Shown piece after piece: positions 9,075 through 44,712 of a stretch of DNA of 64,000 nt. The stretch comes from Streptomyces sp. WMMC500 (GTDB lineage: Bacteria > Actinomycetota > Actinomycetes > Streptomycetales > Streptomycetaceae). The number at the start of each line of letters is the position of its first letter. The first letter of the stretch is position 1. The position numbers were made by a program, and so were the translations under genes. The notes under the pieces are model-generated. The model did not search any database. It had not been told where the DNA came from and worked only from the letters and a program-made list of their open reading frames with translations. The DNA is taken from the NCBI RefSeq assembly GCF_027497195.1, contig NZ_CP114905.1, positions 3,148,001 to 3,212,000 on the forward strand, read 5' to 3'.

Positions 9075-9146
9075 GATGAATCCCCTGTCGATCGTTTGAT
9101 GACGGTTGACGAGCTGAGCGCGCACGGTGCGCGCGGTGGCACGCGG

Positions 9147-12100
9147 CTACGGCGCTTCGCGGACGGCGACGGCGTCGTAGACGATCCAGGAGCCGGCCGC
9201 GTTGGTGAGGGTGACGGTGTTCCGGCCGGCCCGGAGCCGGTCGGCGGGGAGGGTGACGTCGAGCGTGGCGGGGCGGATGGCGCCGTCCGCTCCGTCGCCC
9301 CAGCGGAAGCCGTCACCGCCGCCGCCGGGCAGGTTGACGGTGGTCGGCGGCCCGTCGTTGAGGGAGAGCCGCATCGACGGTCCGGACTGCTGGGTGTCGA
9401 TGAGCCAGGCGGTGAGGGCCAGGTCGGTGGCGGGCGGCTGGTCGAGGTCGAAGCGGAGGGTGAAGGTGTGCTGCTTGGAGCCGGCCCAGGCGTCGTTGGG
9501 GCCGGGGTGGATGTAGCTCCAGGCGGTGGCGGGGTCGCCGGTGCCGATCGTGACGTCGACGTCGTCGGGGAAGGCCGCGGGGTAGTCGCCGAAGCGGTCC
9601 GGCGACAGCGCGAACTCCCCTGTGGCGAGGTCGGGGCTGCCGAGGAGGGCGACGGCCCGGTGGACGGTGGCTGGGGGCCGGCTGTCGGCGCTGCCCCAGC
9701 CGCCCCGGGCGTGCACCGCGAGCGCCTGCGGTCCGACGGCGCCCTGCGGCGCGGTGACGGTGAAGGTGGTGGTGGCGTCCGTCCCGGCGGGGACCCGCAC
9801 GGTGCGGGTCGCCGGCGCCGCGGTCCAGCCTTCGGGGAGCTCCAGTGAGACGTCGGCGTCGAGGTCTTGTGCGTCGTTGCCGGTCAGCCGCACCTGGAAG
9901 GTGACGGGGGCGGCTTCCAGCAGGTGCAGGTGCGCCGGCTCGGTCGAGACGGACAGGGCGGGGGCGACGTGGACGTAGACGATGGCGTCGGGGAGTTCGG
10001 TGCTGTCGGCGGCCCGGCCGGTGAGGACGACGCGGTGCAGTCCGGGAGCGGTGTCGTCGGCGACGTGGAGGGTGAGGTCCTGTTCGGCGGTGTCGGCGGG
10101 GGGTGCGGTGATGCCGCCGCGGGCGGGCCGGATGTCGATGCCGGCGGGTGTGCGGGCCTGCCAGGTTCCTTTGACGGTGCGATCGGTGAGGTTCTGGGCG
10201 GCGAGGGTGAGGGTGCCGGTCTCGCCGGCGTCGACGCGTACGGTGTCGCGGGCGGTGTAGAGCACCGCGGGTGCTTCCGGGGACTTGGAGGGCGGCAGCT
10301 CGGCCACGCCCCAGTCCTTGTTGGGCTCCGGTCCCATCCACAACTCCAGCTCACCGCCCGCCGCGAGCTGATCGTGGTGGAACCAGGCGTTGTCCAGCCG
10401 CTGACCGTTGAGCCTCGCCCCCTGGATGTACATGTGCTCGGCGGAGTTGTCGTGGGTGACGATCCGGAACGTACGGCCGCGGTAGTAGTCCGGATGCAGC
10501 TCGATCGTGACCGCGTCGAACACCGGCGACGTGATGTCGTACACCGGCCGCGGCAGGCTCGCCCCCGTCACCTCGAACAACCCCATCGCCATCAGGGCGC
10601 TGAGCGACCCCATCTGCCCCTGGTCCTCGTCGTGCCCGCCGTATCCCTTCGTCGTGGACGTGCCGCCGTAGGTGATCTCCTTGACCTTGCGCACCCAGTA
10701 CTGGCTCAGCCAGGGATGTCCCACGTAGGTGAAGAGGTGGGCCATCTGAAGGCCGGGCTGGTTGCCGTAGTTGACGTACGCGTCCTCGTCGCCGTTCTGC
10801 CCGGCTCCCGTGAACTCGGCCTTCTCGGACCGCTCGAAGGCGCCGTTGAGCTTGTCGGCGTACGCGGCACGGCCGCCCAGCCGGTTGGCGAGACCGAGCA
10901 CGTCGTACGAGGCGAACCAGGTCGCCTGCCACGAGCTGGCCTCGACGAAGTCGTCGGGGGACAGCGGGTCGAAGTCGTGCTTCCAGCGGCCGTGGGAGTC
11001 CCGGGGCCGGACGAATCCGGTGGCGCGGTCGAAGACGTTGCGCCAGCTCCCGGACCGTTCGATCAGGAAGGCGCCCGTGTCGGTGTCGTCCCACACCTCG
11101 ATCTCGTCGAGGCCGACGTCGTCGCCGGTGCCGCCGGTGGCCTCGAACCGCACCCAGCTCACCCGCCGGGGCCGGAAGGTCACCGCCTTCCTGCCGCCGT
11201 CGGCCGGCACCCGGTCCACCTTCACCGACGAACCGTCGCTGAACCACAGCACACCGGAGTTCACGTGCGAGTCGCCCTCGGCCCGGTCGCTCAGCACCAC
11301 CTTCCGGACGCGCTTCTCCTCCGCCCAGCTCAACTTGATCCACGGCTTCCGCTCCCCCGACGCCCAGCCCGTGCCGCGCGGCTCGCGGATGCCGGAACGC
11401 CTCGGCCGGCCGTCGACGGCCCGTACACCCGCGAGAGTGGAGTCGTTGACCTGCGCGGACACCGACACCTCGGCGAACTGCGCGACGTTGATGCCGGACT
11501 TCCCCAGCCGCCGCGCCAACTGCCCCAGCGTCCAGTCCTGGAAGGCGTACTCGACGGTCTCCCCGGCGCCGCGGGACCGCCATTCGGCGTGCAGGTCGTG
11601 GGGCACGTACCCAATGTCGAGGTAGGCCCGGCCGCCGCCGTGGTTCTCGCCCCAGGTGGCGTACTCGTAGGGCGCCTTGTCGAAGAGGCCGCCCATCGAG
11701 TGCGCGTCGAGCATGGCCTCGTACGCGAGGTCGATGTCGAAGTCCCGGATGCCCTTGTTCCACGCGCCGCTGATGAACGAGGTCACCGGGGAGCCGGTCA
11801 TGACGAACGAGTAGTTGCCGGCCACGGGGCCGCGCGGCAGCAGCCCGCCGTCCTCGTACATCCGGAGCTGGGACCGCACCATGCTGGAGTAGATCTCCGG
11901 ATAGGCCAGCCCCAGCAGGGTGTTGAGGTTCCACTGCGTCAGCCACAGCGCGTCGTAGTTGTACATCGCGAACCGCGGCCGTCCCGACCCGTCGAGCGGG
12001 AGCCGGCCGATCCGCCCGCGGCTCCAGGTGTCGTCGAGGTACGTGCCGTCGGCGTCGCTGACCACGCTGCGCCCGCACAGCACGTGGAACAGGTCGGTGT

Positions 12101-30044: not shown

Positions 30045-30111
30045 TGCAGATCGATAACGGCGGTGGCGGGTGTATAGAGTCGAAGAGTCGGTTTGCCTAG
30101 CGTGGCCGGTG

Positions 30112-31251
30112 ATGTTCGCCGTGGGGTGCCGAGCGATTCCGCAAGGGAGAGGGGAAGCCCTGAACGAGCCGCAGAGCCCCAAACCGGCCACGCCCGTCCG
30201 CGCTGTGCTTTCAGCGCTGCCTTACGCCGTCATGACCGTCGTCGCGGTGGTGGACATCTCGGCCGGCCCGGAAGTCGGCTACCTGCCGCTGGTGTCCCTG
30301 GGCCCCGCGTTCGCCGGCCTGGTCGGCGGATGGCGGCGCACGGCGTTGATCGGGGCACTGGCGCTGCTGCTCTGTGCGGCGCTCGCTCAGTACAACGGGC
30401 TGCTCGGCGACCGCCGCGGGTACACCGCAATGTTCTCGGTGGTCGCGGTCACCGCTGCCGGACTGGCGGCCGTTCGGATGCGACAGGCGAGAGAAGCAGA
30501 GCTGGCCAACGTGCGTTCGATCGCCGAGACGGCCCAGCGTGTGCTGCTGCGGCCCGTGCCGCTGGCCGCCGGAAAACTGAGGATCGCACTTTCGTACACC
30601 TCCGCGGTCGCCGACGCCAGGATCGGAGGCGACCTGTATGAGGTCGTGACGTCACCGGCGGGGGTACGGGTGATCGTCGGCGATGTACAGGGCAAGGGAC
30701 TCGAAGCGGTGGAGGCCGCGGCGGTGGTGCTCAGCGCCTTCCGCGAGGCGGCGTACGACGAACCGGACCTCCAGGCGGTCGGCGAACGTGTCGAACGGGC
30801 ACTTGACCGCCAACTGCCCTCCGAGAAGTTCGTCACGACGATCATGGCGGAGATCGGCGACGAACCGGCCGTGACCCTGCTCAACTACGGACACCCCGCA
30901 CCGCTGGCGGTCCGGAGCGACGGGGACACCCGCCTGCTCGAACCACCCGCACGCGCACTCCCCCTTGGCCTCGGCATGCACGGCACTGCACCGCCCCGAC
31001 CACACGTGCACCCCTTCAGTCCGGGCGACCAGATCCTCTTCTACACAGACGGCGTTACGGAAGCACGCAACGAACAAGGCGCCTTCTACTCCCTCACCAG
31101 GTCCACCCCGCTCCTCAGGGACGCCGACGCCGACACAGCACTGGCGGCCGTTCGCCAGGACCTGATCGACTACGTAGGCGGACCGCTCCAGGACGACGCC
31201 GCCATGCTGCTCCTGCGGTACCGAAGAGAAGACGCCGCCCAGCAGGCGTAA
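30112..31251 (+). CDS. Membrane PP2C/SpoIIE-type serine phosphatase
   Basis: 379 residues from ATG 30112. A CTG at 30160 with a better purine-rich site and a GTG at 30070 are alternatives. Three or four N-terminal membrane segments (~30-130) lead through a short helix to a SpoIIE phosphatase domain (~165-375). Its metal-binding signatures are visible: GGDLYEV, VGDVQGKG, FYTDGVTEARN and DDAAMLLL. Such proteins dephosphorylate anti-sigma-factor antagonists or similar targets. No anti-sigma partner lies next to it. The membrane domain is probably the sensor. Confidence 0.9.
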   Translation: MFAVGCRAIPQGRGEALNEPQSPKPATPVRAVLSALPYAVMTVVAVVDISAGPEVGYLPLVSLGPAFAGLVGGWRRTALIGALALLLCAALAQYNGLLGDRRGYTAMFSVVAVTAAGLAAVRMRQAREAELANVRSIAETAQRVLLRPVPLAAGKLRIALSYTSAVADARIGGDLYEVVTSPAGVRVIVGDVQGKGLEAVEAAAVVLSAFREAAYDEPDLQAVGERVERALDRQLPSEKFVTTIMAEIGDEPAVTLLNYGHPAPLAVRSDGDTRLLEPPARALPLGLGMHGTAPPRPHVHPFSPGDQILFYTDGVTEARNEQGAFYSLTRSTPLLRDADADTALAAVRQDLIDYVGGPLQDDAAMLLLRYRREDAAQQA

Positions 31252-31613
31252 CGGCCATCGCACCCTCGGGGCCGAGGCGACCGAGGCCGTCGGCGCCGGG
31301 CCGGGCGGCCCCGGCCATGTGCCGGTCGTCGTCGTTCGGATCCGTCGGCCTGTCACGGACGGATTCCTGTGCTCCGGTTGCTGTCAAGTCCGCTGTCCGC
31401 ACAAGAAATTGGCCACTCGGCCGGGCTACCGCCTCCCAGGGCCCTCCCCTAGTCTCTGCCGCCGTATTCGTCCTTACGTACGAAGGGACGCTGCTGTGGG
31501 CGCAGGGGGAACGCTCGGCACGCCAGGGACGGAACGGCCGGCGCCGCCGGTCCGCCGGAAGCCGGTGTCGTCCGCTGTCGCGGGTCCGGTGGGACCGGGT
31601 GGGGCGGGCACCG
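31252..31613 (+). other. Intergenic region upstream of the encapsulin cluster
   Basis: 362 bp with no convincing gene. It starts with a short GC-rich inverted repeat just after the phosphatase stop (CCTCGGGGCCGAGG) that may end transcription. It should hold the promoter of the six-gene operon that follows; TAGTCT near 31451 is a possible -10, but no good -35 is seen. Several GTGs before 31614 are in frame with the oxidase but lie in low-bias sequence. Confidence 0.4.
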
Positions 31614-32744
31614 GTGGCTGACGTCCTGGTCATCGGGGGTGGCATCGCCGGTGCCGCGGCGGGGTGGTCTCTCGCCGGGCGGTCCGGCAGCCGCCGGGTG
31701 ACGCTGCTGGAGGCGGAGCGGGTTCCGGGGATGCACGCGACCGGGCGCTCCGCGGCGCTGTTCAGCGAGTACTTCGGCAACGCGGCGGTGCGGGCGCTCA
31801 CCGTGCACAGCCGGGTCTTCTACGCGACGCCGCCCACCGGCTTCGCCGCCGGCCCGCTGCTCACGCCACGCGGCGTCCTCGCCCTCGGTACCCCGGAGAC
31901 CGCCGCGGCCTTCGCGGCCGCGAAGGCCGCGGGGGCCGGCGCGCCGCAGCCCGCCGTGGAACTGACCGTCGAGGAGGCGCTCGGGCTGTGCCCGCTGCTC
32001 CGCCCCGGCGCGTTCGACCGGGCGCTCCACAAGCCGGGGGCCTGCGACGTCGACGTGGACGCCGCGCACCAGGGCTTCCTGCGCGGGCTGCGGGCCGCCG
32101 GGGGCACGGTGGTGACCGGTGCCCGGGTCACGGGGCTCGTCCGGCGCGGCGGCCGGTGGCACGCCGCCACCCCGGCCGGCGACTTCTCCGCGCCGCTCGT
32201 CGTCAACGCGGCGGGCGCATGGGCCGACGGCGTCGCGAAGTTGGCCGGTGTGCCGCCGGCCGGGCTCGTCCCGTACCGCCGTACGGCCGCGCTCGCCCGG
32301 GTGCCGGACGGCCACGACGTCACGGGCTGGCCCATGGTCACCGACGTCGCCGACACCTTCTACGCCCGCCCCGAGCCCGGCGGTCTGCTGCTCTCCCCCG
32401 CCGACGCGACACCGACGGCGCCGGGTCCGGTGCGCCACGACGAGGCCGACGTGGCGCTCGCGATCGCACGGTTCGAGGCGATGGTCGCCCTCCCGCTGCG
32501 GCACGTGTCGCACGCCTGGGCGGGGCTGCGCACCGCCGCGCCCGACGACACCCCGGTGATCGGGCCCGACCCGGACGCGCCGGGGTTCTGCTGGCTCGCC
32601 GGACTCGGTGGCTACGGCATCCAGACGGCCCCCGCGGCCGGCGCCCTGCTCGCCGCCCTGGCCGCCGAGGACGCACCACCACCGGAACTGCTCCCGCTCG
32701 TCGCGGACGTCACTCCGGTCCGCACCCGCACGGCACCGCTCTGA
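31614..32744 (+). CDS. FAD-dependent amine/amino-acid oxidoreductase (DAO family)
   Basis: 376 residues. The GTG at 31614 puts the FAD-binding motif VIGGGIAGAAAGWSLA right at the N-terminus, as in glycine oxidase and D-amino-acid dehydrogenase relatives. A second FAD contact, VVNAAGAWAD, is near residue 200 and the C-terminal GLGGYGIQTAP closes the cofactor site. It oxidises C-N bonds of amines or amino acids to imines, which hydrolyse to carbonyl compounds. First gene of the encapsulin biosynthetic operon, 24 nt before the NRPS-like gene. It may act on the amino-acid precursor or on an amine product. Confidence 0.9.
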   Translation: MADVLVIGGGIAGAAAGWSLAGRSGSRRVTLLEAERVPGMHATGRSAALFSEYFGNAAVRALTVHSRVFYATPPTGFAAGPLLTPRGVLALGTPETAAAFAAAKAAGAGAPQPAVELTVEEALGLCPLLRPGAFDRALHKPGACDVDVDAAHQGFLRGLRAAGGTVVTGARVTGLVRRGGRWHAATPAGDFSAPLVVNAAGAWADGVAKLAGVPPAGLVPYRRTAALARVPDGHDVTGWPMVTDVADTFYARPEPGGLLLSPADATPTAPGPVRHDEADVALAIARFEAMVALPLRHVSHAWAGLRTAAPDDTPVIGPDPDAPGFCWLAGLGGYGIQTAPAAGALLAALAAEDAPPPELLPLVADVTPVRTRTAPL

Positions 32745-32768
32745 CCCCCAACCCCTCCGGGAGAGAGC

Positions 32769-35700
32769 TTGCTGGATATGTCGGAAACGAACTGGCACCT
32801 GGCTGGCGGACGAGCCGACCACGGCCCGTACCGCCCGGTGACCACCCTCATCGAACAGCAGTGTGCCCGCACCCCGGACCGCCCCGCCGTCACCTTCCGC
32901 GGCGCGACGGAGACCACGCTCACGTACGCGGAGTTCGACGCGCTCGCCAACGGACTGGCCACCGAGCTCGCCGAAGCGGGGGTGCGCGCCGGAGACGTCG
33001 TGCCCGTCGTCCTCGGCAACAGCCTCGAACTGCCGCTGTGCATGGTGGCGTTGACGAAGCTCGGCGCCGCCTTCTCGCTGTGCGACCCCGCCTGGCCGGA
33101 GGAGCGCCTGCGCGCCGTGCTCGTACGCCCCGGGCCGCCGCTGGTACTGACGGCGACCGCCGCGGTCGTGGAGCACGGCGCCCACGTGGTCGCCGCGGAC
33201 CGCATCCGCCCGCGCGGGCGCGGGCCCGACGTGCCGGCGCCGGGTGCGGACACGGTGGCGTACGGCGTGTTCACCTCGGGCAGCACCGGTGCGCCGAAGT
33301 GCGCGCTGAACGTGCACCGCGGGCTGACCAACCGGTTGCGCTTCATGACCCGCTGGTTCGCCGCCACCGGTGACGAGGTCGTCCTGCAGAACAGCAGGCA
33401 CACCTTCGACTCGGCGATCTGGCAGTTACTGTGGCCGCTGACGACCGGCGGTCGCACGATCGTGCCGGAGCAGGGCGAGTTCCTGGACCTGGAGCGGACG
33501 GTGGAGATCATCCACCGCTACCGCGTCACCGTCACGGACTTCGTGCCCGCGATCCTGGGCATGCTGGTCGCCCTGCTGGAGGCGGAGCCCGCGGCGGTGG
33601 CGAAGGTGGCGTCGCTGCGCCACGTCGTCGTCGGCGGCGAGGAGATCATCCCGCACGCCGTGCACCGGCTGCGCGCGCTGGTGCCGGGACTGGAGATCAC
33701 CAACGGCTACGGCCCGTCGGAGACCGCCATCGGCATGGTCTTCCACCGCATCGCCGGCGACGAGGGAGACAGCATCCCGCTGGGCCGCCCCATCGACAAC
33801 TGCTACGCGGTCGTCGCCGACGACCGGCTCACACCGCTGCCCCCGGGCCGCACCGGGGAGATCCTCGTCGGCGGCGCCTGCGTGGGCGCCGGCTACCTCG
33901 ACGACCCGGCGCGCACCGCGCAGGCGTTCGTACCGAACCCTCATGCCCGGATCCCCGGTCCGCGGCTCTACCGCACCGGCGACCTGGGCTGGTTCGACGA
34001 GGCGGGCGTGCTGCGCTTCGCCGGCCGGCGGGACCGGCAGGTCAAGGTGGACGGGGTGCGTATCGAGCCGGCCGAGATCGAGACCGCCGCCGAGGGCTGC
34101 GCAGGCGTGATCCAGGCCAAGGCGCTGACCGTGCGGCGGGGCGGGCGCAACCGGCTGGTGGTGGCCGCCGCCGCCGAGGACGGCACCGCGCCGGCGGCAC
34201 TGCGCGCGCACCTGGTGTCGGTGCTGCCGCGCATCCACCTGCCGCAGCACTGCTTCGTGCTGGAGTCGCTGCCGCTGAGCGACAACGGCAAGGTCGACCT
34301 GGAGGCGCTGCGCCGGATCGTGACGGAGAAGCTGGCGGCCGGCGGCAGACCCGGCGTCCGCGACGGCGATCCGCCCGCGGAGCGCGTCGCGGACATCGTG
34401 CGCGGCATCCTCGGACTGCCGGACTTCGGCGTGGACGACGACTTCCTCGCCCACGGTGGCGACTCGCTGAGCGCGCTCGCCGCCACCATCGCCGTGCGCG
34501 ACGCGCTCGGTGTCCCCGTGGTCGTCTCCGACCTGTACGCGCACCGCAGCCCCGGCGCGCTGGCCGCCGCCGTGCTGCACCGGCCGGCCCCGGACGGCGA
34601 TGCCGTCGCGAAGGAGGAGTCGGCGCTGATGGAGCACGACGCGCTGCTGCCGGCGGACCTGGCGCGCGCGGCGGCCCGGGCCGCCGGCTCCGTCGCGGTG
34701 CTGCCGCCGCGCACCGTGCTGGTGACCGGGGCCAGCGGCTTCGTCGGCTCCCGGGTGGTGCACCGGCTGCTCGGGACCACGCCGGCCCGGGTGGTGTGCC
34801 TGGTCCGCGCCCACGACGACGTACAGGCCGGAAAGCGGATGGTGGCCGCGCTGCGCGCCCAGGGGCTTTGGGCGGAGGCGCTGGGGCCGCGGCTGGACGC
34901 CCGCGCGGGCGACCTCGCCCAGCCCCGCTTCGGCTGGCACGCGCGGCGGTGGGAACGGTACGCGGTGGAGTGCGACGCGGTGCTGCACGCCGGTGCGCTG
35001 GTCAACTTCCTGCTCGGCTACGGTGACCACCGCGCCGCCAACGTCGCGGGGACCGCCCACGTGCTGCGCTTCGCACTCGCCGGCCGGCCCAAGCCGCTGC
35101 ACCACGTGTCCACCCTCGGAGTGCTCGACCGGCACGCGCTGCACACCGGCACGCGGCTCGGCGAGGGCACCGACGCACGGCGGGTGACGGTGCCCGGCAG
35201 CGGCTACAGCCGGTCCAAGCTGGTGGCGGAGCAACTGCTGCTGCGGGCGCGCGAGCTGGGCGCGCCGGTCACGCTCTACCGGCTCGGCGAGATCATGCCC
35301 GCCGTGGACAACGGCCTGCCCAACCCGCGGGCGCTCACGCACCTGCTGCTGTCCGCCTTCCACGAGCTCGGACTGCGGCCGGCGGTGCCGATGCGCACCG
35401 ACTACACGCCGGTCGACGAGACGGCCGCCCGGCTGGTCGCGGGACTGGCAGAGGGGGCGACGGGTGCGGACTACCACGTGTTCCGCGCGGGAAGCGTCGA
35501 CCTGGCCGCGGTCGGGTCGTCACCGGCCGGCCCGGCGGCGGACGGCGGACCGCGCCCGCTGCCGCCGCGCGCGTTCACGGCCGCGCTCGCCGCGGCGGCC
35601 GCGGCCGACGAGCGGTCGGCAGCAGCCCTGCTGCACGCCGTGCTGACCTCCCTCCCGGCCGGCCGCGCGGACGGAACGCCGGACTTCGCCCGGCTGCTCA

Positions 35701-35819
35701 CCGACAACCCGCGGTTGTTCACCCGCGCCCGCTGCGCCGGGCTGGAAGAGCGCCACGGGCTGCGCGACGGCCCGCTCGACGAGGCGTTCGCCGCGTACCG
35801 CGCGACACTCGCCGGCTGA
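32769..35819 (+). CDS. NRPS-like A-T-R protein (adenylation, carrier, thioester reductase)
   Basis: 1016 residues from TTG 32769 (gggag site); ATG 32778 is possible. Adenylation core motifs: FTSGSTGAPK near 167, NGYGPSETA near 312, YRTGDL near 400, GRRDRQVKVDG near 420 and A10 NGKVD near 505. The carrier domain has HGGDS with the phosphopantetheine Ser566. The reductase Rossmann motif TGASGFVG is at 653-660 and the catalytic YSRSK at 813-817. FDSAIW keeps the Asp that binds the alpha-amino group, so an alpha-amino acid is the likely substrate. With no condensation domain, it should activate one amino acid and release it as aldehyde (or alcohol) with NADPH. Codon 220 is a TTA, rare in Streptomyces and read by the bldA tRNA. 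Confidence 0.95.
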   Translation: MLDMSETNWHLAGGRADHGPYRPVTTLIEQQCARTPDRPAVTFRGATETTLTYAEFDALANGLATELAEAGVRAGDVVPVVLGNSLELPLCMVALTKLGAAFSLCDPAWPEERLRAVLVRPGPPLVLTATAAVVEHGAHVVAADRIRPRGRGPDVPAPGADTVAYGVFTSGSTGAPKCALNVHRGLTNRLRFMTRWFAATGDEVVLQNSRHTFDSAIWQLLWPLTTGGRTIVPEQGEFLDLERTVEIIHRYRVTVTDFVPAILGMLVALLEAEPAAVAKVASLRHVVVGGEEIIPHAVHRLRALVPGLEITNGYGPSETAIGMVFHRIAGDEGDSIPLGRPIDNCYAVVADDRLTPLPPGRTGEILVGGACVGAGYLDDPARTAQAFVPNPHARIPGPRLYRTGDLGWFDEAGVLRFAGRRDRQVKVDGVRIEPAEIETAAEGCAGVIQAKALTVRRGGRNRLVVAAAAEDGTAPAALRAHLVSVLPRIHLPQHCFVLESLPLSDNGKVDLEALRRIVTEKLAAGGRPGVRDGDPPAERVADIVRGILGLPDFGVDDDFLAHGGDSLSALAATIAVRDALGVPVVVSDLYAHRSPGALAAAVLHRPAPDGDAVAKEESALMEHDALLPADLARAAARAAGSVAVLPPRTVLVTGASGFVGSRVVHRLLGTTPARVVCLVRAHDDVQAGKRMVAALRAQGLWAEALGPRLDARAGDLAQPRFGWHARRWERYAVECDAVLHAGALVNFLLGYGDHRAANVAGTAHVLRFALAGRPKPLHHVSTLGVLDRHALHTGTRLGEGTDARRVTVPGSGYSRSKLVAEQLLLRARELGAPVTLYRLGEIMPAVDNGLPNPRALTHLLLSAFHELGLRPAVPMRTDYTPVDETAARLVAGLAEGATGADYHVFRAGSVDLAAVGSSPAGPAADGGPRPLPPRAFTAALAAAAAADERSAAALLHAVLTSLPAGRADGTPDFARLLTDNPRLFTRARCAGLEERHGLRDGPLDEAFAAYRATLAG

Positions 35820-35912
35820 CCAGGAGGGCGGCCGGCGCGGCGAGTTCGCCGCCGCACCGGCAGCCTGACGGAGACGAACGGAACTGCAAGGAAGCGTCAC
35901 GGAAGGGGACTC

Positions 35913-36896
35913 GTGCGAAATCGGACCATGGGCCGGCTCGGCTGGCAGGTCAGCGAGATCGGCTACGGAATGTGGGGCATCGGCGGCGGCCCCGGCGGCT
36001 TCACCGGCTGGGACTACGACGTCGCGCCCGACTGCCTGGACCTGGCGGTGGAGCTGGGCTGCACCTTCTTCGACACCGCCTGGGTCTACGGCAGAGGGGT
36101 CAGCGAGCAGTTGCTCGCGGCGCTGCTCAAGCGCCACCCGGAGCGGCGGCTCTACACCGCGACGAAGGTGCCGCCGCGCAACCGCGAGTGGCCGCCGGGC
36201 AAGGACGACACCCTCGACGACGTCTTCCCGCCGGACCACGTGCGCGAGTACGTGCACCGCAGCCTGGAGAACCTCGGCACCGACAGCATCGACCTGCTGC
36301 AGTTCCACGTGTGGGAGGACTCCTGGGCCGGGGACGAGCGCTGGCAGCAGGTCGTCGCCGACCTCAAGGCGGAGGGCGTGATCGAGGGTTTCGGCATCAG
36401 CGTCAACCGGTGGGAGCCGGAGAACTGCATGCGGGCCCTCGACACCGGCCTCGTCGACGTCGTCCAGGTGATCTACAACGTCTTCGACCAGGCGCCGGAG
36501 GACGAGCTGTTCGAGCGCGCGCAGCGCGACGGCATCGGCATCATCGCCCGCGTGCCCTTCGACGAGGGCGGGCTGACCGGTGCGCTCACCCGGGAGACGA
36601 CGTTCCCCGAAGACGACTGGCGCGCGGTCTACTTCGGTCCCGACAACCTGGGTCCGACCGTCGACCGGGCGGAGGCGCTGAAGAAGGTGCTCCCCGAGGG
36701 CATGACGCTGCCCGAACTCGCGCTGCGCTTCATCCTCCACCACCCGGCCGTGAGCACGGTCATCCCCGGCATGCGGAAACCCGCCCACGTACGCGCCAAC
36801 CTCGCGGTCTCCGACGCCCCGCCGCTCGACCCCGGGCTGCTGACCGAGCTGCGGCGGCACCGGTGGGACCGGCGGCCCACGGCCTGGTCGATGTGA
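35913..36896 (+). CDS. Aldo/keto reductase
   Basis: 327 residues from GTG 35913 with a ggaagggg site. A TIM-barrel aldo/keto reductase with the catalytic tetrad Asp54, Tyr59, Lys85 and His132 (FDTAWVYG, TATKVPP, LLQFHVW). The C-terminal phosphate-binding region VIPGMRKPAHVRAN fits NADPH use. In this operon it would reduce the aldehyde released by the A-T-R enzyme to an alcohol. Its stop overlaps the sulfotransferase GTG (GTGA at 36893). Confidence 0.93.
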   Translation: MRNRTMGRLGWQVSEIGYGMWGIGGGPGGFTGWDYDVAPDCLDLAVELGCTFFDTAWVYGRGVSEQLLAALLKRHPERRLYTATKVPPRNREWPPGKDDTLDDVFPPDHVREYVHRSLENLGTDSIDLLQFHVWEDSWAGDERWQQVVADLKAEGVIEGFGISVNRWEPENCMRALDTGLVDVVQVIYNVFDQAPEDELFERAQRDGIGIIARVPFDEGGLTGALTRETTFPEDDWRAVYFGPDNLGPTVDRAEALKKVLPEGMTLPELALRFILHHPAVSTVIPGMRKPAHVRANLAVSDAPPLDPGLLTELRRHRWDRRPTAWSM

Positions 36897-37642
36897 GCGG
36901 GGACGGCGGCGCGGGAGCGCGGGCGGGCGTCATCGCCCTGTGGGCGCACCCGCGCTCGGTGTCCACCGCCTTTCTGCGCATGATGGCCGAACGCGGCGAC
37001 GTCACCGTGGTGCACGAGCCGCTGGTGCTGCTCACCGACCACGGCGAGGTGGCGGTGCCGGGCCCCGGCGGCGGCACGACCACCGTGCGCTCGTACGCCG
37101 AGCTGCTCGCCCATCTGGCCGAACTCGGCGCGACGGAACGGGTGTTCTTCAAGGACACGCTGGAGTACCACTACGCCCACCTCTTCGCGCACCCCGAGTC
37201 GATCGCCGGCTTCCGGCACACGTTCATCGTCCGCGAGCCCGCGGCGACCATCGCCTCGCACCACACCGTCAAGCCGGAGTTCGCCTGCCGCGAGGTCGGC
37301 TACGAGCACCAGTGGGCACTGTTCGAGCTGGCGTGGAAGACGACCGGCGTCCGGCCCGTGGTCGTCACCGCCGAGCGACTGCTCGCCGACCCGGCCGGCA
37401 CGGTCGCGGCGTACTGCGCGGCGACCGGCCTGCCGTTCCTGCCCTCCGCGCTGACCTGGGCGCCCGGGGAGCTTCCCCAGTGGCGGCAGAACCGCCGCTG
37501 GCATCTGGACGCCAGCGCCAGCTCCGGCTTCGCCGCCCCGCGGGCCCGGTACGCGGCCACCGTCGAGGACGACGCGCGGCTGCGCGCGTACTACGACCAC
37601 CACCTCCCCTACTACCAGCGGCTCGTCGAACACGCGCTCTGA
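36893..37642 (+). CDS. PAPS-dependent sulfotransferase-like protein
   Basis: 249 residues, start coupled to the preceding stop. The P-loop-like PAPS 5'-phosphosulfate site HPRSVSTAF is at residues 19-27 and the 3'-phosphate site VREPAATIASHH is near 110-121. These are the two hallmarks of the sulfotransferase fold, in the Sulfotransfer_4/aminotransferase-like branch. It would sulfate a hydroxyl group, most simply the alcohol made by the upstream reductases. Sulfotransferases are among the enzymes known to occur with family 3 encapsulins. Confidence 0.85.
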   Translation: MSGDGGAGARAGVIALWAHPRSVSTAFLRMMAERGDVTVVHEPLVLLTDHGEVAVPGPGGGTTTVRSYAELLAHLAELGATERVFFKDTLEYHYAHLFAHPESIAGFRHTFIVREPAATIASHHTVKPEFACREVGYEHQWALFELAWKTTGVRPVVVTAERLLADPAGTVAAYCAATGLPFLPSALTWAPGELPQWRQNRRWHLDASASSGFAAPRARYAATVEDDARLRAYYDHHLPYYQRLVEHAL

Positions 37643-37663
37643 CCCCGGCACAGGAGGAGAGAC

Positions 37664-38497
37664 ATGCCCGCGACCGAGATCCGTACCGCCACCCCCGGCG
37701 AGCAGTTCGCCCGCGCCTTCCGCACCGACCCGGCGGCGGAGGTCCGCTTCGACTTCACGCTCAGCGACGCCTTCCAGCCGACCGCGGACCGCCCCCGGCT
37801 GACCGTGCGCAACCTCTTCCGCAAGGTGCGCGTGGACGCCGACGCGCTCGTCTCCTGGTTCGAGTCCCGGCCCAGCCGGTCCGCGTCCGGCGCGGCGGGC
37901 GAGCGGCTGCGGGAGGCGGACTTCCGTTTCGACACGGCGGCGTACGGCGTCGCGCCCATCGCCGGCTGGGTCCAGATCCCGGAGCGCCTCGTGGACGAGC
38001 CGGCGGCGCTGGCGTCGTTCGTCGACCGCCGGCTGATGGTGCGCCTCGGCACGGCGGAGAACCGCGCGCTCACCGTCGGCCTGCTCAGCCACCCGGACCT
38101 GGCGCCGCTGCCGTACTCCGGCTCGTACACGCAGGGTGTGCTGGCCGCCTTCGACGAGATCGAGCAGACCGGCGGCACCGGACACGCGATGATCGTCAAC
38201 CCCCGCGACTACTACGGCGAGCTGGTCGGCGCCGGCAACCTGCTGACCGACCTGGCCCGGGAAAAGGTGATGATCTGCCGCAACCGGCACGTGGCACCCG
38301 GCCACGCGATCGTCGGCGACTTCGCCATGGCGGCGCGGCTGCTGGAGGCAGGCCACTCCGTGATCAAGGTGGCGGAGCCGCCGCCCGGCACCTTCGCCGC
38401 ACCGGGCACCTCGGTGTGCGCCGAGGTCTACGAGGGCGTGGCCCTGCAACTCCCGACGCACTTCTACCACGTGGTCCCGGGAGGGGCGGATGACTGA
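37664..38497 (+). CDS. HK97-fold capsid-like protein, probable family 3 (natural-product) encapsulin
   Basis: 277 residues with a strong ggaggagag site. The C-terminal two thirds follow the HK97 major capsid plan. WVQIPERLVDEPAALASFVD (102-121) is the spine-helix entry seen in phage gp5 proteins. RLMVRLGTAENRAL (123-136) follows, then a glycine loop. VLAAFDEIEQTG (159-170), MIVNPRDYYGEL (176-187) and AIVGDFAMAARLLE (215-228) match the A-domain, and the last strands run to ~271. No portal, protease, terminase or tail gene is near, and the gene is locked between a sulfotransferase and an exporter. That is the setting described for family 3 encapsulins in biosynthetic clusters. It should self-assemble into a shell enclosing one or more pathway enzymes. 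Fold likely; shell formation and cargo inferred. Confidence 0.85.
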   Translation: MPATEIRTATPGEQFARAFRTDPAAEVRFDFTLSDAFQPTADRPRLTVRNLFRKVRVDADALVSWFESRPSRSASGAAGERLREADFRFDTAAYGVAPIAGWVQIPERLVDEPAALASFVDRRLMVRLGTAENRALTVGLLSHPDLAPLPYSGSYTQGVLAAFDEIEQTGGTGHAMIVNPRDYYGELVGAGNLLTDLAREKVMICRNRHVAPGHAIVGDFAMAARLLEAGHSVIKVAEPPPGTFAAPGTSVCAEVYEGVALQLPTHFYHVVPGGADD

Positions 38498-39641
38498 ACA
38501 ACGGTGGGCGCGGACCTTCTCGGGTCTGGTCGCCGCGCTGCTCTGCACGTTCACCGCCGTCGGCATGGTGATCCCCGTGATCCCCAAGCTGGTCACGGAC
38601 GAACTGGACGGCTCGGCCTTCGAGGTGGGCATCACCTTCACCGTCTCCGGCGTGGTGGCGCTGCTGGTGCGCCCGTACGCGGGGCAGCTCGCCCAGCGCA
38701 CCGGCTGCCGCCGCGTGATGCTGTTCGGCGCGGTGCTCATCGTGGCCGCCGCCGGCCTGTACGCGCTGCCGTTCGGCCTGCCCGGGCTGTACGCGGCGCG
38801 GGTCCTGCTGGGCCTCGGCGAGGCGATGCTCTTCATGGCCGGATCGCTGTGGACGGTGTCACTGGCCCCGCAGGACCGGCGGGCGCAGATCGTCGGCTTC
38901 TACGGGCTGGCCATGTGGAGCGGCTTCGCCCTCGGCCCCGTGCTGGGCGAACTGGTCTACCGGGCGGGGTCGTTCGGCGCGGTGTGGGTGACGGTCGCCG
39001 TCCTGCCGGCAGTCGCGTTCTGCGTGATCCTCGGGCTCACCGACCGGGTGGAGCGGGGCGCCCCGGTCTCCCGCAAGCTGCTGCCGCGCTCGGCCGTTCT
39101 GCCGGGGCTGTCGCTGGCCTGCGGCTCCTTCGGCTACGCCATGGTGGCGGGCTTCGCGGCGCTGGCGATGACGGACCGCGGCGTGGCCCACGGGTCCGTC
39201 GTCGTCAGCGCGTTCGGCGTCGCGTACGTGACCGTGCGGGTGGTGGCGGGCCGGATCCCCGACCGGGTCGGCGCGCTGCCGGTGGTGGTGTTCTCGGCGT
39301 CGGTGGAGGCGGTGGGCATGGTGCTGATCGCCTTCGCCTCCGACCTGTGGCTGGCCACGCTGGGCGCGCTGATCGCCGGCGGCGGCTTCACGCTGCTCTA
39401 TCCCGCGCTCGCGCTCATCACCATCGACGCCGCGCCGGAGTCCGAACGCGGCGCCGCGCTGGGCGCCGTGACGTCGTTCTTCGACGTGGCCATCGGCCTG
39501 GCCGGGCTGATCGGCGGCGCGCTGGCGGAGGTCAGCTACACGATGACGTTCCTGCTCGCGGCCGGTGCCGTGCTGGGTTCGCTGTACGCGGGCACGGCCG
39601 CGGCCCGGGGCTCGCGAGCCCGGGACCCGGCGGCGGCCTGA
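38490..39641 (+). CDS. MFS exporter of the encapsulin cluster
   Basis: 383 residues, ATG overlapping the capsid gene by 8 nt. Twelve membrane segments; the motif GQLAQRTGCRRVM between helices 2 and 3 is the MFS signature. It is most like drug-efflux permeases. As last gene of the operon it likely exports the finished, probably sulfated, product and could provide self-resistance. The stop codon lies in the loop of a 7-bp hairpin. Confidence 0.92.
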   Translation: MTEQRWARTFSGLVAALLCTFTAVGMVIPVIPKLVTDELDGSAFEVGITFTVSGVVALLVRPYAGQLAQRTGCRRVMLFGAVLIVAAAGLYALPFGLPGLYAARVLLGLGEAMLFMAGSLWTVSLAPQDRRAQIVGFYGLAMWSGFALGPVLGELVYRAGSFGAVWVTVAVLPAVAFCVILGLTDRVERGAPVSRKLLPRSAVLPGLSLACGSFGYAMVAGFAALAMTDRGVAHGSVVVSAFGVAYVTVRVVAGRIPDRVGALPVVVFSASVEAVGMVLIAFASDLWLATLGALIAGGGFTLLYPALALITIDAAPESERGAALGAVTSFFDVAIGLAGLIGGALAEVSYTMTFLLAAGAVLGSLYAGTAAARGSRARDPAAA

Positions 39642-40453: not shown

Positions 40454-41209
40454 GTGCTGCTTCTCATCTCCCCGGACGGTGTCGAGGAGGCTCTCGACTG
40501 TGCGAAGGCGGCGCAGTACCTCGACATCGTCGACGTCAAGAAGCCTGATGAGGGCTCTCTCGGCGCGAACTTCCCCTGGGTCATCCGCGAGATCCGCGAC
40601 GCGGTCCCGGCGGACAAGCCGGTGTCCGCAACCGTGGGGGATGTCCCGTACAAGCCCGGCACGGTGGCCCAGGCTGCGCTCGGCGCGGTCGTCTCGGGGG
40701 CCACGTACATCAAGGTCGGCCTCTATGGATGCACGACCCCTGATCAGGGCATCGAGGTCATGCGCGCGGTCGTCCGGGCGGTGAAGGATCACCGCGCGGA
40801 CGCGCTCGTCGTTGCCTCGGGCTACGCCGACGCCCACCGGATCGGCTGCGTCAATCCGCTCGCCGTGCCCGACATCGCCGCCCGGTCCGGCGCCGACGCG
40901 ACCATGCTCGACACCGCCGTCAAGGACGGGACGCGGTTGTTCGACCACGTTCCACCGGACGTCTGTGCGGAGTTCGTCCGGCTGGCTCACGCCTCCGGTC
41001 GGCTCGCGGCCCTCGCGGGCAGTGTCACGCAGTCCGACCTCGGTCCGCTGACCCGCATCGGTACGGACATCGTGGGCGTGCGGGGAGCGGTCTGTGAGGG
41101 CGGTGACCGCACTACCGGAAGGATCAAACCGCATCTGGTGGCCGCCTTCCGGGCGGAGATGGACCGGCACGCCCCAGAGCGCACCGTCGGCGTCTCCGCC
41201 GTGCACTGA
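40454..41209 (+). CDS. mfnB: MfnB-like (5-formylfuran-3-yl)methyl phosphate synthase
   Basis: 251 residues from GTG 40454 with an ideal aaggagg site. It is a TIM-barrel protein clearly of the MfnB (DUF556) family: [50 protein letters not shown] and DTAVKDG. The residues shown to be catalytic in the methanogen enzyme are present with a constant offset of two: Lys29, Lys87, Asp153 and Lys157. MfnB joins two glyceraldehyde-3-phosphates to give 4-(hydroxymethyl)-2-furancarboxaldehyde phosphate, the furan unit of methanofuran. None of the later methanofuran or formyl-transfer genes are here. The following genes oxidise aldehydes and alcohols and methylate, so a different furan product is likely. 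Confidence 0.93.
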
Positions 41210-41217
41210 CCGCCGTC

Positions 41218-42621
41218 ATGCCGACCTCTGAGGCCGAGCGCGTCCCCGGATACCCGGCCGTACGTTTCGCCGTCGTCGACCCGGCCACCGGGGAAGCCTT
41301 CGACGAGGCTCCCGATCAGCAGCCGGACGAGTTGGATGCCGTGGTCGCGCGGGCCCACCGGGCCTGGCACGGGTGGCGGGCCGACCCCGTCGCACGCACC
41401 GCTGCGTTGCACGCGGCGGCCGACGCAGTGGAGGGGGCCGGCGACGACCTCGCCCGGTTGCTCACCCGGGAACAGGGCAAGCCCCTGGCCGAGTCGTACG
41501 CGGAGGTCGCCCGTACGGCGGCCCGCCTGCGCTACTTCGCCGACCTCGCCCCCAGAACCCGGCGGATCGCCGACGGCCGGCCGGTGCGCAGCGAGATCCG
41601 CTGGCGACCGCTCGGGCCCGTCGCCGCGATCGTGCCGTGGAACTTTCCCCTCCAGCTCGCGGCGGCGAAGTTCGCGCCCGCGCTGGCGGCGGGCAACACC
41701 GTGGTCCTCAAACCGTCCCCGTTCACCCCTTTGGCCACCCGGCTGCTCGGTTCCGTCCTCGCCACCGTCCTGCCCGAGGACGTCCTGACCGTCGTCACCG
41801 GCCGCGAACCCCTCGGTGCCCGTCTCGCGTCCCATCCGGGCATCCGCCACGTCACCTTCACCGGTTCGGTGTCCACCGGGCGGGCGGTCGCCGAAGCGGC
41901 GGCGGCCTCGCTCGCCCGGGTCACCTTGGAGCTGGGGGGCAATGACGCTGCCGTCCTGCTGGACGACGTCGAGGTGGACCGGATCGCGGACCGGCTGTTC
42001 TGGGCGGCGTTTCGCAACTGCGGGCAGGTCTGCATGGCGGTCAAACGCGTCTACGCCCCGACCCGGCTGCACGCCGAGGTCGTCGAAGCCCTCGCCCAGC
42101 GCGCGAAGACCGTCGCCGTCGGGGCCGGCCTCGACGCGGACACCCGGCTGGGCCCTGTCAACAACGCCCCGCATCTGGCCCGAATCGAGCAGGTCACACA
42201 GCAGGCCCTGGGGGACGGTGCCCGGGCGGCGGCGGGCGGCCACCGGCTGGACGGCGCGGGGTACTTCTTCGCTCCCACGATCCTCACCGACGTGCCGCCC
42301 GGCAGTCCGGTGGTGACCGGGGAACAGTTCGGACCGGTTCTGCCGGTACTGCCGTACCGGAGCCTCGACGAAGCCGTGGATGCGGCCAACAGCACCGGCT
42401 TCGGACTGGGTGGCTCCGTATGGGGCACCGATCTCGACCGGGCCGAGGCGGTGGCCGAGCGGCTTGAATGCGGCACAGCCTGGGTCAACCATCATGCCGA
42501 ACTGTCCCTCGCCCAGCCCTTCGCAGGTGTCAAGGACAGCGGGGTCGGCGTCGCGGGCGGGCCGTGGGGGCTGTACGGCAACCTCCGGCCGTTCGTCGTC
42601 CACCGCCCGCAGAAGGGGTGA
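41218..42621 (+). CDS. NAD(P)-dependent aldehyde dehydrogenase
   Basis: 467 residues, 8 nt after mfnB. Classic ALDH motifs: WNFP with Asn142, Glu238 in LELGGND and catalytic Cys272 in NCGQVC. Length is normal for the succinate-semialdehyde/benzaldehyde dehydrogenase group. In this operon it could oxidise the furan aldehyde made by MfnB, or a second aldehyde made by the next enzyme, to a carboxylate. Confidence 0.94.
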   Translation: MPTSEAERVPGYPAVRFAVVDPATGEAFDEAPDQQPDELDAVVARAHRAWHGWRADPVARTAALHAAADAVEGAGDDLARLLTREQGKPLAESYAEVARTAARLRYFADLAPRTRRIADGRPVRSEIRWRPLGPVAAIVPWNFPLQLAAAKFAPALAAGNTVVLKPSPFTPLATRLLGSVLATVLPEDVLTVVTGREPLGARLASHPGIRHVTFTGSVSTGRAVAEAAAASLARVTLELGGNDAAVLLDDVEVDRIADRLFWAAFRNCGQVCMAVKRVYAPTRLHAEVVEALAQRAKTVAVGAGLDADTRLGPVNNAPHLARIEQVTQQALGDGARAAAGGHRLDGAGYFFAPTILTDVPPGSPVVTGEQFGPVLPVLPYRSLDEAVDAANSTGFGLGGSVWGTDLDRAEAVAERLECGTAWVNHHAELSLAQPFAGVKDSGVGVAGGPWGLYGNLRPFVVHRPQKG

Positions 42622-42623
42622 CG

Positions 42624-43730
42624 ATGCGGTTCCAGGCAGCCGTACTGCGCTCGTACGAGGACCCGTTCACCGTCGAGGAGGTTGTTCTGCGGACAGAGCC
42701 CGCCGTCGGCGAGATCCTGGTCGAGATCGCGGGCACCGGGATGTGCCGGACCGATCTCGCGGTCCGGCGATCCGCCGGCCGGAGCCCCGTGCCGGCCATC
42801 CTCGGCCATGAGGGCGCCGGGGTCGTGGTGCGGACGGGGAGTGGTCCGGACGCCGCGATCGGCGTCGGTGACCACGTCGTGCTGAGCTTCGACTCCTGCG
42901 GACGCTGCCGGACCTGCCGCGGCGCGGCCCCGGCCTACTGCGACTCCTTCGCTTCCCTCAACCTCTTCGGGGGGCGCAAGGAGGAACCGCCGCGGCTCAC
43001 CGACGCGACGGGTAAAGCACTGGCACCCCGGTGGTTCGGGCAGTCCTCGTTCGCCCAGTACGCCCTCGTTCCGGCTCGTAACGCCGTACGGGTCGACCCC
43101 GCACTGCCGCTCCAACTGCTCGGGCCCCTCGGTTGCGGTTGCCTCACCGGCGCCGGAGCCGTCCTGAACACCTTCGGCGCAGGTCCCGGCGACACCCTCG
43201 TGGTCTTCGGCGCGGGAGCGGTGGGCCTGACCGCGGTGATGGCGGCCACCGCCGCAGGTGTGCTGACCGTGGCCGTCGACCGGTGTCCTGAGAGGCTCGC
43301 TTCGGCCGAGCGGTTCGGCGCGACCCCCCTGACCGCCGCCTCACCCGACCTGCCCGAACGGATCCGGCGACTGACCGACGGCGGCGCCCAGTACGCGCTG
43401 GACACCACGGCCTCACCCACGCTCATCAACAAGGCGCTCCAGGCCCTGCGTCCCACCGGCAGCCTCGGCCTGGTGGCACGCCTCCACAAACCAATGGCGC
43501 TCGAACCGGGCACGCTCGACCGTGGCCGCAGCATTCGTCACATCTGCGAAGGGGACGCTGTACCCGGAGTACTGATACCCCGACTCATCGGACTGTGGCA
43601 GGCAGGACGCTTCCCTTTCGACGAGCTGATCCGTATCTACCCGCTGGCCGGCATCAACGAGGCCGAGCGCGACTGCGACGCGGGCCGTGTCGTCAAACCC
43701 GTCCTGCTCCCGGAGAGAACAAACCGATGA
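42624..43730 (+). CDS. Zinc-dependent aryl-alcohol dehydrogenase
   Basis: 368 residues from ATG 42624 (aaggggtg site). An MDR alcohol dehydrogenase: catalytic zinc ligands Cys41 and His62 with Glu63 (GMCRTDL, GHEGAG), structural zinc Cys92, 95, 98 and 106, and the NAD site VFGAGAVGL. The long GPLGCGCLTGAGAV segment is typical of benzyl/aryl-alcohol dehydrogenases. A hydroxymethylfuran, after loss of phosphate from the MfnB product, would fit the active site of such an enzyme. Confidence 0.93.
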   Translation: MRFQAAVLRSYEDPFTVEEVVLRTEPAVGEILVEIAGTGMCRTDLAVRRSAGRSPVPAILGHEGAGVVVRTGSGPDAAIGVGDHVVLSFDSCGRCRTCRGAAPAYCDSFASLNLFGGRKEEPPRLTDATGKALAPRWFGQSSFAQYALVPARNAVRVDPALPLQLLGPLGCGCLTGAGAVLNTFGAGPGDTLVVFGAGAVGLTAVMAATAAGVLTVAVDRCPERLASAERFGATPLTAASPDLPERIRRLTDGGAQYALDTTASPTLINKALQALRPTGSLGLVARLHKPMALEPGTLDRGRSIRHICEGDAVPGVLIPRLIGLWQAGRFPFDELIRIYPLAGINEAERDCDAGRVVKPVLLPERTNR

Positions 43731-43806
43731 GCGAGGCACGCGCACTGCACGCACCCCATCCGACAAGTGAGCACCCCGCATCCCCACTTCCGCCGACGGA
43801 GGAAGC

Positions 43807-44712
43807 ATGGCAGGCACAACGCCCCAGCACACAGACGTGGAAGGCGTGCACGGAGGTGTGGGCCTTACCGCTCTCCTGGTCGCCGCGGCACGGGCCATCG
43901 AGACCCACCGCCACGACAGCCTGGCCCAGGACACCTTCGCGGAACACTTCGTGCGCGCGGCCCCTGCCTGCGCGGACTGGCCGGTGCGCATCGAGCAGGT
44001 TCCGGACGGGGACGACAACCCGCTGTGGGGGCGGTTCGCCCGCTACTTCGGCCTGCGGACGAGGGTGCTTGACGACTTCCTCCTCCGGTCGGTCGGTGCG
44101 AACGCCCCCCAAGTGGTCCTGCTGGGAGCGGGGCTGGACACCCGCGCCTTCCGGCTGGATCTGCCGTCCGGCTGCGTCATCTTCGAGATCGACAGGGCGG
44201 GCGTGCTGGCCTTCAAGCACCGAGTGCTCACGGACCTGTCGGCTGCCCCGAAGGTGAAGCGCGTCCCCGTACCGGTCGACTTGTGCGAGGGCTGGGCCGG
44301 CGCGCTGACCACCGCCGGCTTCGACCCGGCCGCACCGAGCGTCTGGCTGGCCGAAGGACTCCTCTTCTACCTGCCTGGCCCCGCCGAGACGTACCTCATC
44401 GACACAGTGGACAGGCTGACCGCCGCAGGCAGCGCGCTGGCCTTCGAGGCAAAGCTGGAGAAGGACCTACAGGCGTACCGCGACAGCCCCATCTACACGG
44501 CGACGCGAGAACAGATCGGCATCGACCTGCTCCACCTCTTCGACAAGGGGCCACGACCCGACTCGGCGGGCGACCTGACGGTCAGGGGCTGGTCCACCTC
44601 AACGCACACACCCTTCGACTACAGCCGCCGGCACGGACGCGGCCCCCTTCCCGAGCCCAACGATGCGCTGGAGGGAAACCGGTGGGTGTTCGCGCACAAG
44701 CCCTCGCCGTAA
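43807..44712 (+). CDS. SAM-dependent methyltransferase, LCMT-like
   Basis: 301 residues with a ggaggaagc site. The family is the leucine carboxyl methyltransferase-like group common in actinobacteria: VVLLGAGLDTRAFRL (SAM motif I), FEIDRAGVLAFK, VDLCEGW and WLAEGLLFYL. These enzymes often methylate carboxyl or hydroxyl groups of small molecules. With a preceding aldehyde dehydrogenase, methyl-esterification of a furan carboxylate is a reasonable guess. The small ATG frame at 43727 in front of it is out of frame and not counted. Confidence 0.88.
   Translation: MAGTTPQHTDVEGVHGGVGLTALLVAAARAIETHRHDSLAQDTFAEHFVRAAPACADWPVRIEQVPDGDDNPLWGRFARYFGLRTRVLDDFLLRSVGANAPQVVLLGAGLDTRAFRLDLPSGCVIFEIDRAGVLAFKHRVLTDLSAAPKVKRVPVPVDLCEGWAGALTTAGFDPAAPSVWLAEGLLFYLPGPAETYLIDTVDRLTAAGSALAFEAKLEKDLQAYRDSPIYTATREQIGIDLLHLFDKGPRPDSAGDLTVRGWSTSTHTPFDYSRRHGRGPLPEPNDALEGNRWVFAHKPSP

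Follow-up and report, generated by a model that had tools for sequence, protein, structure and literature searches.

Why should a gene for a capsid-like protein lie among the genes of a small biosynthetic operon, and what might its product enclose? The question is raised by a 64,000 nt stretch of the Streptomyces sp. WMMC500 genome (positions 3,148,001 to 3,212,000 of NZ_CP114905.1, hereafter the window), which is part of a single 8.61-Mb contig. The six genes concerned are listed below, together with the gap upstream of them. We read them as a family 3 encapsulin operon, in which an amino acid would be converted to an amino alcohol, sulfated and exported, with the capsid-like shell enclosing a reactive step, and we give this reading a probability of roughly 55%.

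31614..32744, + strand: flavoenzyme, a DauA relative resembling flavin adenine dinucleotide (FAD)-dependent D-amino-acid dehydrogenases (376 aa; start GTG; PF01266)
32778..35819, + strand: non-ribosomal peptide synthetase (NRPS)-like A-T-R reductase with adenylation, carrier and NAD(P)H thioester-reductase domains (1013 aa; start ATG)
35913..36896, + strand: aldo/keto reductase, AKR (327 aa; start GTG; PF00248)
36893..37642, + strand: sulfotransferase of the 3'-phosphoadenosine 5'-phosphosulfate (PAPS) type (249 aa; start GTG; PF19798)
37664..38497, + strand: family 3 encapsulin shell protein, predicted HK97 fold (277 aa; start ATG)
38490..39641, + strand: predicted exporter of the major facilitator superfamily, MFS (383 aa; start ATG; PF07690)
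31252..31613, + strand: intergenic stretch, a 362-bp gap behind a phosphatase gene and the putative promoter region of the operon

The original prediction had described six genes on one strand with overlaps or short gaps, and all were recovered, in order, on the + strand. The spacings are 33, 93, -4, 21 and -8 bp, the start of the sulfotransferase gene overlapping the AKR stop by 4 bp and the start of the MFS gene overlapping the shell stop by 8 bp (start codons were assigned from the reading frame and homologues). Its domain assignments, made from motifs, agree with Pfam and NCBIfam families for every gene except in the label given to the flavoenzyme: the best scores are 177 bits for the flavoenzyme (DAO), 173 for the AKR (Aldo_ket_red), 51 for the sulfotransferase (Sulfotransfer_5) and 140 for the exporter (MFS_1). 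Within the A-T-R protein, AMP-binding (PF00501, 236 bits), PP-binding (PF00550, 47 bits) and NAD_binding_4 (PF07993, 159 bits) domains are found, along with a match to TIGR01733 (339 bits). The motifs read in it are GGDSL, presumably of the carrier, and TGASGFVG and YSRSK, which we take to belong to the reductase; those of the AKR are FDTAWVYG, ATKVP and QFHVW, and those of the sulfotransferase WAHPRS and VREPAATIAS.

The shell protein scores 320.8 bits on the curated family 3 model NF041188 encap_f3 (cut-off 180), its structure model has the HK97 fold, and it resembles HK97 capsids in sequence also (1.5e-6). Of the Pfam models, only PF05065 is matched at E 0.01, with 23.6 bits slightly below the cut-off of 24.2, and there is no match to Linocin_M18 (PF04454), the family 1 encapsulin model. 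A sequence search with the shell found no solved family 3 encapsulin structure. That the operon is biosynthetic and contains a family 3 encapsulin system is thus supported by the agreement of the curated hidden Markov model, the predicted fold and the conserved neighbourhood described next, and the structure model showed the HK97 fold that the original prediction had called for.

Shells were grouped by their identity to that of the window: class A at least 56%, class C 39–41% and class B 29–35%. Matches over the cut-off occurred in 5 of 297 genomes of the host family, in 2 of 396 genomes across the phylum (host genome included) and in 41 of 300 Micromonosporaceae genomes. From the 41 last-named genomes, 20 loci were fetched, mostly top-ranked (L074 had been fetched earlier, besides), and comprise seven of class A, eight of class B and five of class C. 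Class A as a whole has 17 members: the window, the Streptomyces loci L031-L038 (found by the shell alone) and L073, and the Micromonosporaceae loci L103-L108 and L116; L072 and L038 are one locus, counted once. Flavoenzyme, A-T-R, AKR, sulfotransferase and shell genes co-occur in all 17, with A-T-R, AKR, sulfotransferase and shell always in this order. The flavoenzyme gene is kept in the seven Micromonosporaceae loci upstream or downstream of the set and on either strand, and no further called gene is common to more than two of these seven (antisense frames of the set aside). The presence of the five genes together in 17/17 loci argues that the neighbourhood is not due to chance. An MFS exporter gene also lies near the set in every class A locus, and we conclude from this conservation that four enzymes, shell and exporter probably form the core of the pathway.

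The AKR is 71–95% identical in the 16 relatives, the 71% value (L116) being that of one piece of a split gene. In that Micromonosporaceae locus (8178-9154), a mutation or a sequencing error splits the AKR gene over two frames; we scored the gene as present without repairing it. Sulfotransferase orthologues at least 72% identical were found in 3 of 297 family genomes, with up to nine first-look candidates scored per genome, and all three genomes are shelled. Directly behind the shell gene of S. smaragdinus (L032) lie cysD and cysN, the genes of the ATP sulfurylase that supplies activated sulfate.

The adenylation pocket of the window A-T-R protein reads DSWDVGGIGK, and the pattern DSWD[VIL]G[GAT]IGK is shared by every one of the 23 A-T-R proteins in the comparison, with or without a shell at the locus. 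Asp235 is presumably the amino-acid-binding residue. The code matches no single amino acid assignment; by the code rules as we understand them, the Asp at 278 may point to a substrate whose side chain is polar or cationic. Six shell-less loci carry the same A-T-R/AKR pair with nearly the same pocket but neither shell nor flavoenzyme. Two of them (L082 and L136) have ArgG-like, AKR, sulfotransferase and A-T-R genes; in the other four (L132-L135), A-T-R and AKR (69–70% identical) genes are followed by an NRPS, without a sulfotransferase. Since the pair recurs in several contexts, it resembles a module that can be reused, with an amino alcohol as its predicted product. The NRPS modules of L132-L135 have the pocket codes DTEDIGTVGK and DMGEIGSVDK, and the clusters of L082 (6428-13900) and L136 (5588-12938) also carry a regulator-like gene.

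The flavoenzyme had been labeled an FAD amine oxidase, but its closest PDB relatives are D-arginine dehydrogenase, DauA (3nyc and 6p9d, 255 and 254 bits), and the next family scores only 71 bits. The match to DauA (3nyc) is full-length, and Arg222, Arg305 and Tyr249 are kept in all 17 class A flavoenzymes by alignment, whereas Glu87 is replaced by Val, and His48 by Leu, Val or Phe, in every one; residue 246 may be Asp, Glu, Gly or Ala. In the available part of a study of DauA, the Arg pair contacts the carboxylate, and Glu87 and Glu246 contact the guanidinium group (PMC11193025). With the Arg pair kept and Glu87 and His48 lost, the substrate is likely to be an amino or imino acid other than plain D-arginine. 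D-arginine itself, suggested by the DauA match and the ArgG-like gene of L082, is not claimed because of those two losses. The flavoenzyme is present in 17/17 shelled loci versus 0/6 shell-less loci with the same A-T-R/AKR pair (Fisher 1e-5, kinship of the loci ignored). The former were found via the shell and the latter via AKR or sulfotransferase, so that its presence was not selected for.

The sulfotransferase has both the family match and, in its predicted fold, the architecture expected of a PAPS-dependent enzyme. It is 48% identical to one encoded beside homologues of AziU3 and AziU2 (PDB 7wuw, 243 and 178 bits), proteins that carry out the aziridine formation of azinomycin by sulfate elimination. 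Its two best fold matches are the olefin synthase (OLS) and curacin domains, which we take to use sulfate as a leaving group. In a PDB sequence search (E up to 1), the 60 listed of 123 matches were antibody-type chains. Of 54 matches gathered for a sulfotransferase tree, 16 duplicates were removed and 38 kept; the tree was read by genome, and its 'shell' and 'AziU' labels are incomplete, since duplicates carried other locus names.

What the analysis shows is which genes are present, to which families they belong, which folds their proteins are predicted to adopt and that the set is conserved; from this we infer each reaction, their order, the cargo, the assembly of the shell and the product. 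The A-T-R protein would load an amino acid on its carrier and release an amino aldehyde with NAD(P)H, the AKR would convert this to the amino alcohol, the PAPS sulfotransferase would form the O-sulfate, and the MFS protein would export the product. The flavoenzyme may act on an amino or imino acid somewhere along the same route. The shell likely holds the sulfotransferase, an oxidoreductase or both, by which an amino aldehyde or an alkylating amino-alkyl sulfate would be kept from the cytosol. A sulfated small metabolite would accordingly be made inside or on the capsid, as had been proposed originally.

Several points weigh against this route. The 17 class A loci share kinship, and the counts given above are not independent. 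No cargo tag was seen in the ends of AKR, sulfotransferase and A-T-R aligned against those of shell-less L082, nor in the flavoenzyme ends aligned among shelled loci; AKR length appears constant, and the sulfotransferase and flavoenzyme ends seem to lack any shell-specific extension. The occurrence of A-T-R, AKR and sulfotransferase genes without a shell in L082 and L136 indicates that the chemistry can probably run without a capsid and need not require one. The Arg pair retained in the flavoenzyme points to a substrate bearing a carboxylate, and such a substrate is hard to place after the A-T-R step. Lastly, the nearest sulfotransferase kin of known pathway kind belong to aziridine-type clusters, where sulfate is lost.

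A leftover phage capsid lying in the operon by chance would also resemble HK97 capsids in sequence and fold, but the shell scores above the cut-off of the curated encapsulin model, is no more than 23% identical to its best phage match, and is kept with the same enzymes in 17 loci. Its operon context is biosynthetic genes, not phage genes: no PHROGs structural family was found in nine other window proteins (A-T-R and MFS outside the set) or in ten flanking proteins of four relatives (L031, L037, L105 and L106), whose matches were of unknown or metabolic function, and the phage genes that had been named as a counter-indication were thus not seen at these loci. We consider a phage remnant extremely improbable. 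The shell might instead dock on the MFS exporter and pass the product to the membrane rather than enclose an enzyme, a doubtful proposal for which the 8 bp gene overlap speaks, as does the 71% identity of the window MFS to that beside the class B shell of L070, although the shells themselves are 33% identical. The accessible text of a 2021 survey describes fusions of MFS-like helices to some family 3 shells of Mesorhizobium (PMC8346489). However, the window kind of MFS lies near the shell in 9 of the 17 class A loci, while the other eight (L032-L038 and L073) have, upstream, an AMP-ligase gene and a DHA2-type MFS gene, this exporter gene not adjoining that of the shell, and just 2 of 10 class B loci (L070 and L112) have the window kind. 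Several of these eight loci share further downstream genes, for example for a universal stress protein.

The kinship of the sulfotransferase to those of aziridine pathways means that sulfate could be a leaving group and not part of the product: ring closure of a β-amino alkyl sulfate would yield an aziridine or some other amine that is strained or alkylating, an electrophile which the shell would contain. Besides the 48% identity and the OLS and curacin fold matches, this would explain why a shell is worthwhile, and an amino acid taken through aldehyde and amino alcohol to the O-sulfate, as in the predicted route, is a Wenker precursor. The known aziridine synthase is, however, absent: AziU2 and AziU3 were both missing from the window, and AziU3 from the host genome (positive controls included) and from all 10 class A genomes searched. 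There is precedent in azinomycin, for which the portion of the source available describes attack of a neighbouring amine on a sulfated amino acid, forming the aziridine, and the making of the C7 amino acid by transketolase and ArgC-type genes (PMC9570651). Such genes, 61–74% identical among themselves, are present in 4 of 10 class B shell loci (L070, L071, L111 and L115), with weaker ones (30–44%) in three and none in three. The family 3 product that has been studied contains 6-chloromethyl-5-methoxypipecolic acid, according to the part of the survey available (PMC8346489), and its halide may occupy the place that a sulfate leaving group could take. All told, loss of the sulfate is possible but not the likelier course. 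It is more doubtful still that family 3 encapsulins in general are chambers for sulfate-leaving-group chemistry, here a capsid-enclosed, Wenker-like closure to an aziridine-like alkylator, and we are equally hesitant about its corollary that the shell gives a containment which AziU2/AziU3 synthase pathways do without. Among open-licence PMC records, a search joining encapsulin and aziridine gave a single match, the accessible text of which is about vanadium catalysts. The genotoxin-resistance family PF06224 (17 genomes) was uninformative, its nearest same-contig copy lying about 80 kb from a class A shell (G901) and about 61 kb from an AziU cluster (G262).

In all three classes, the shell is paired with a sulfotransferase and a carbonyl reductase, with class B and C enzymes that differ from those of class A. 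The eight Micromonosporaceae class B loci have a PF13469-type sulfotransferase and a short-chain dehydrogenase/reductase (SDR) with the shell, along with AMP-ligase (8/8), cysD/cysN (3/8) and window-kind MFS (1/8) genes. MFS, sulfotransferase, SDR, shell and DAO-type flavoenzyme genes occur together in 5/5 class C loci. Sulfotransferases and SDRs have been reported together in family 3 clusters before, in the available text of the survey (PMC8346489), and our loci are consistent with this. Two of six fetched class C shells have a lanthipeptide-type context, adjoining a DAO-type flavoenzyme and a class III lanthipeptide synthetase with RamC_N and LANC_like domains (L074, 8936-16220; L118, 210-5915). 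Class C SDRs (L074, L114 and L117-L120) share a C-terminal extension of some 20 residues with a terminus like TGVRKDTYA; class B SDRs are without this extension, which is a candidate targeting peptide. Two class C-shelled genomes hold an AziU3 homologue elsewhere (G861:C4:113021-114001 and G745:C1:1084872-1085888).

The operon is immediately preceded, on its own strand, by a SpoIIE-type phosphatase gene (30070-31251), of which no relative was found in the fetched stretches of 32 other shelled loci. Downstream, also on one strand (40454-44712), are genes for a 4-(hydroxymethyl)-2-furancarboxaldehyde phosphate synthase (PF04476, 258 bits), an aldehyde dehydrogenase, a zinc alcohol dehydrogenase and an LCM-type methyltransferase, which may together form a bacterial furan pathway. 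PF04476, which we take to be the furan-forming family of methanofuran synthesis, is present in 20 of 101 family genomes. These four genes were rejected as an extension of the operon: they occur in 0/32 of the shelled loci's fetched stretches, and that of L031, with a 93% identical shell, is also without them. Rfam and tRNA scans of the 64-kb window gave no matches.

With five conserved genes, an exporter and natural shell-less relatives as controls, the operon is a small test case, and the linkage of flavoenzyme to shell, together with the aziridine kinship of the sulfotransferase, makes the old question of shell contents directly testable. If the shell holds the sulfation or a ring-closing step, then the operon would be a case of a bacterial capsid guarding its host against a reactive metabolite that the host itself makes, and would point to new sulfated or alkylating natural products.

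Among known systems, the AziU2/AziU3 pathways of azinomycin and vazabitide are alike in having a related PF19798 sulfotransferase (48% identity), and sulfation of a vicinal amino alcohol is predicted in both. Their AziU2/AziU3, transketolase and ArgC-type genes are absent from the window, which, unlike them, has shell, A-T-R and AKR genes. A search of open-licence PMC records for natural product encapsulins turned up PMC8346489 alone; PMC8776678 deals, in the part available, with a linocin-type encapsulin and is not relevant here. The former survey (Andreas and Giessen 2021), compared through the text of its section 9, distinguishes six classes and describes the 'natural product' encapsulins of family 3 in the same actinobacterial biosynthetic cluster context, with an HK97-fold shell gene, a sulfotransferase, a reductase and an NRPS-type enzyme, as in the window. 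That text already proposes sequestration of reactive aldehydes by family 3 shells, and mentions a single studied product family, for which the role of the shell is called unknown. The window type differs from the clusters described there in its small set of five genes and an exporter, its A-T-R protein, its DauA-like flavoenzyme, and an AKR where published clusters have an SDR. Family 3 encapsulins with sulfotransferases have therefore been in print since 2021, and the WMMC500 operon is a sharply defined new member of this group.

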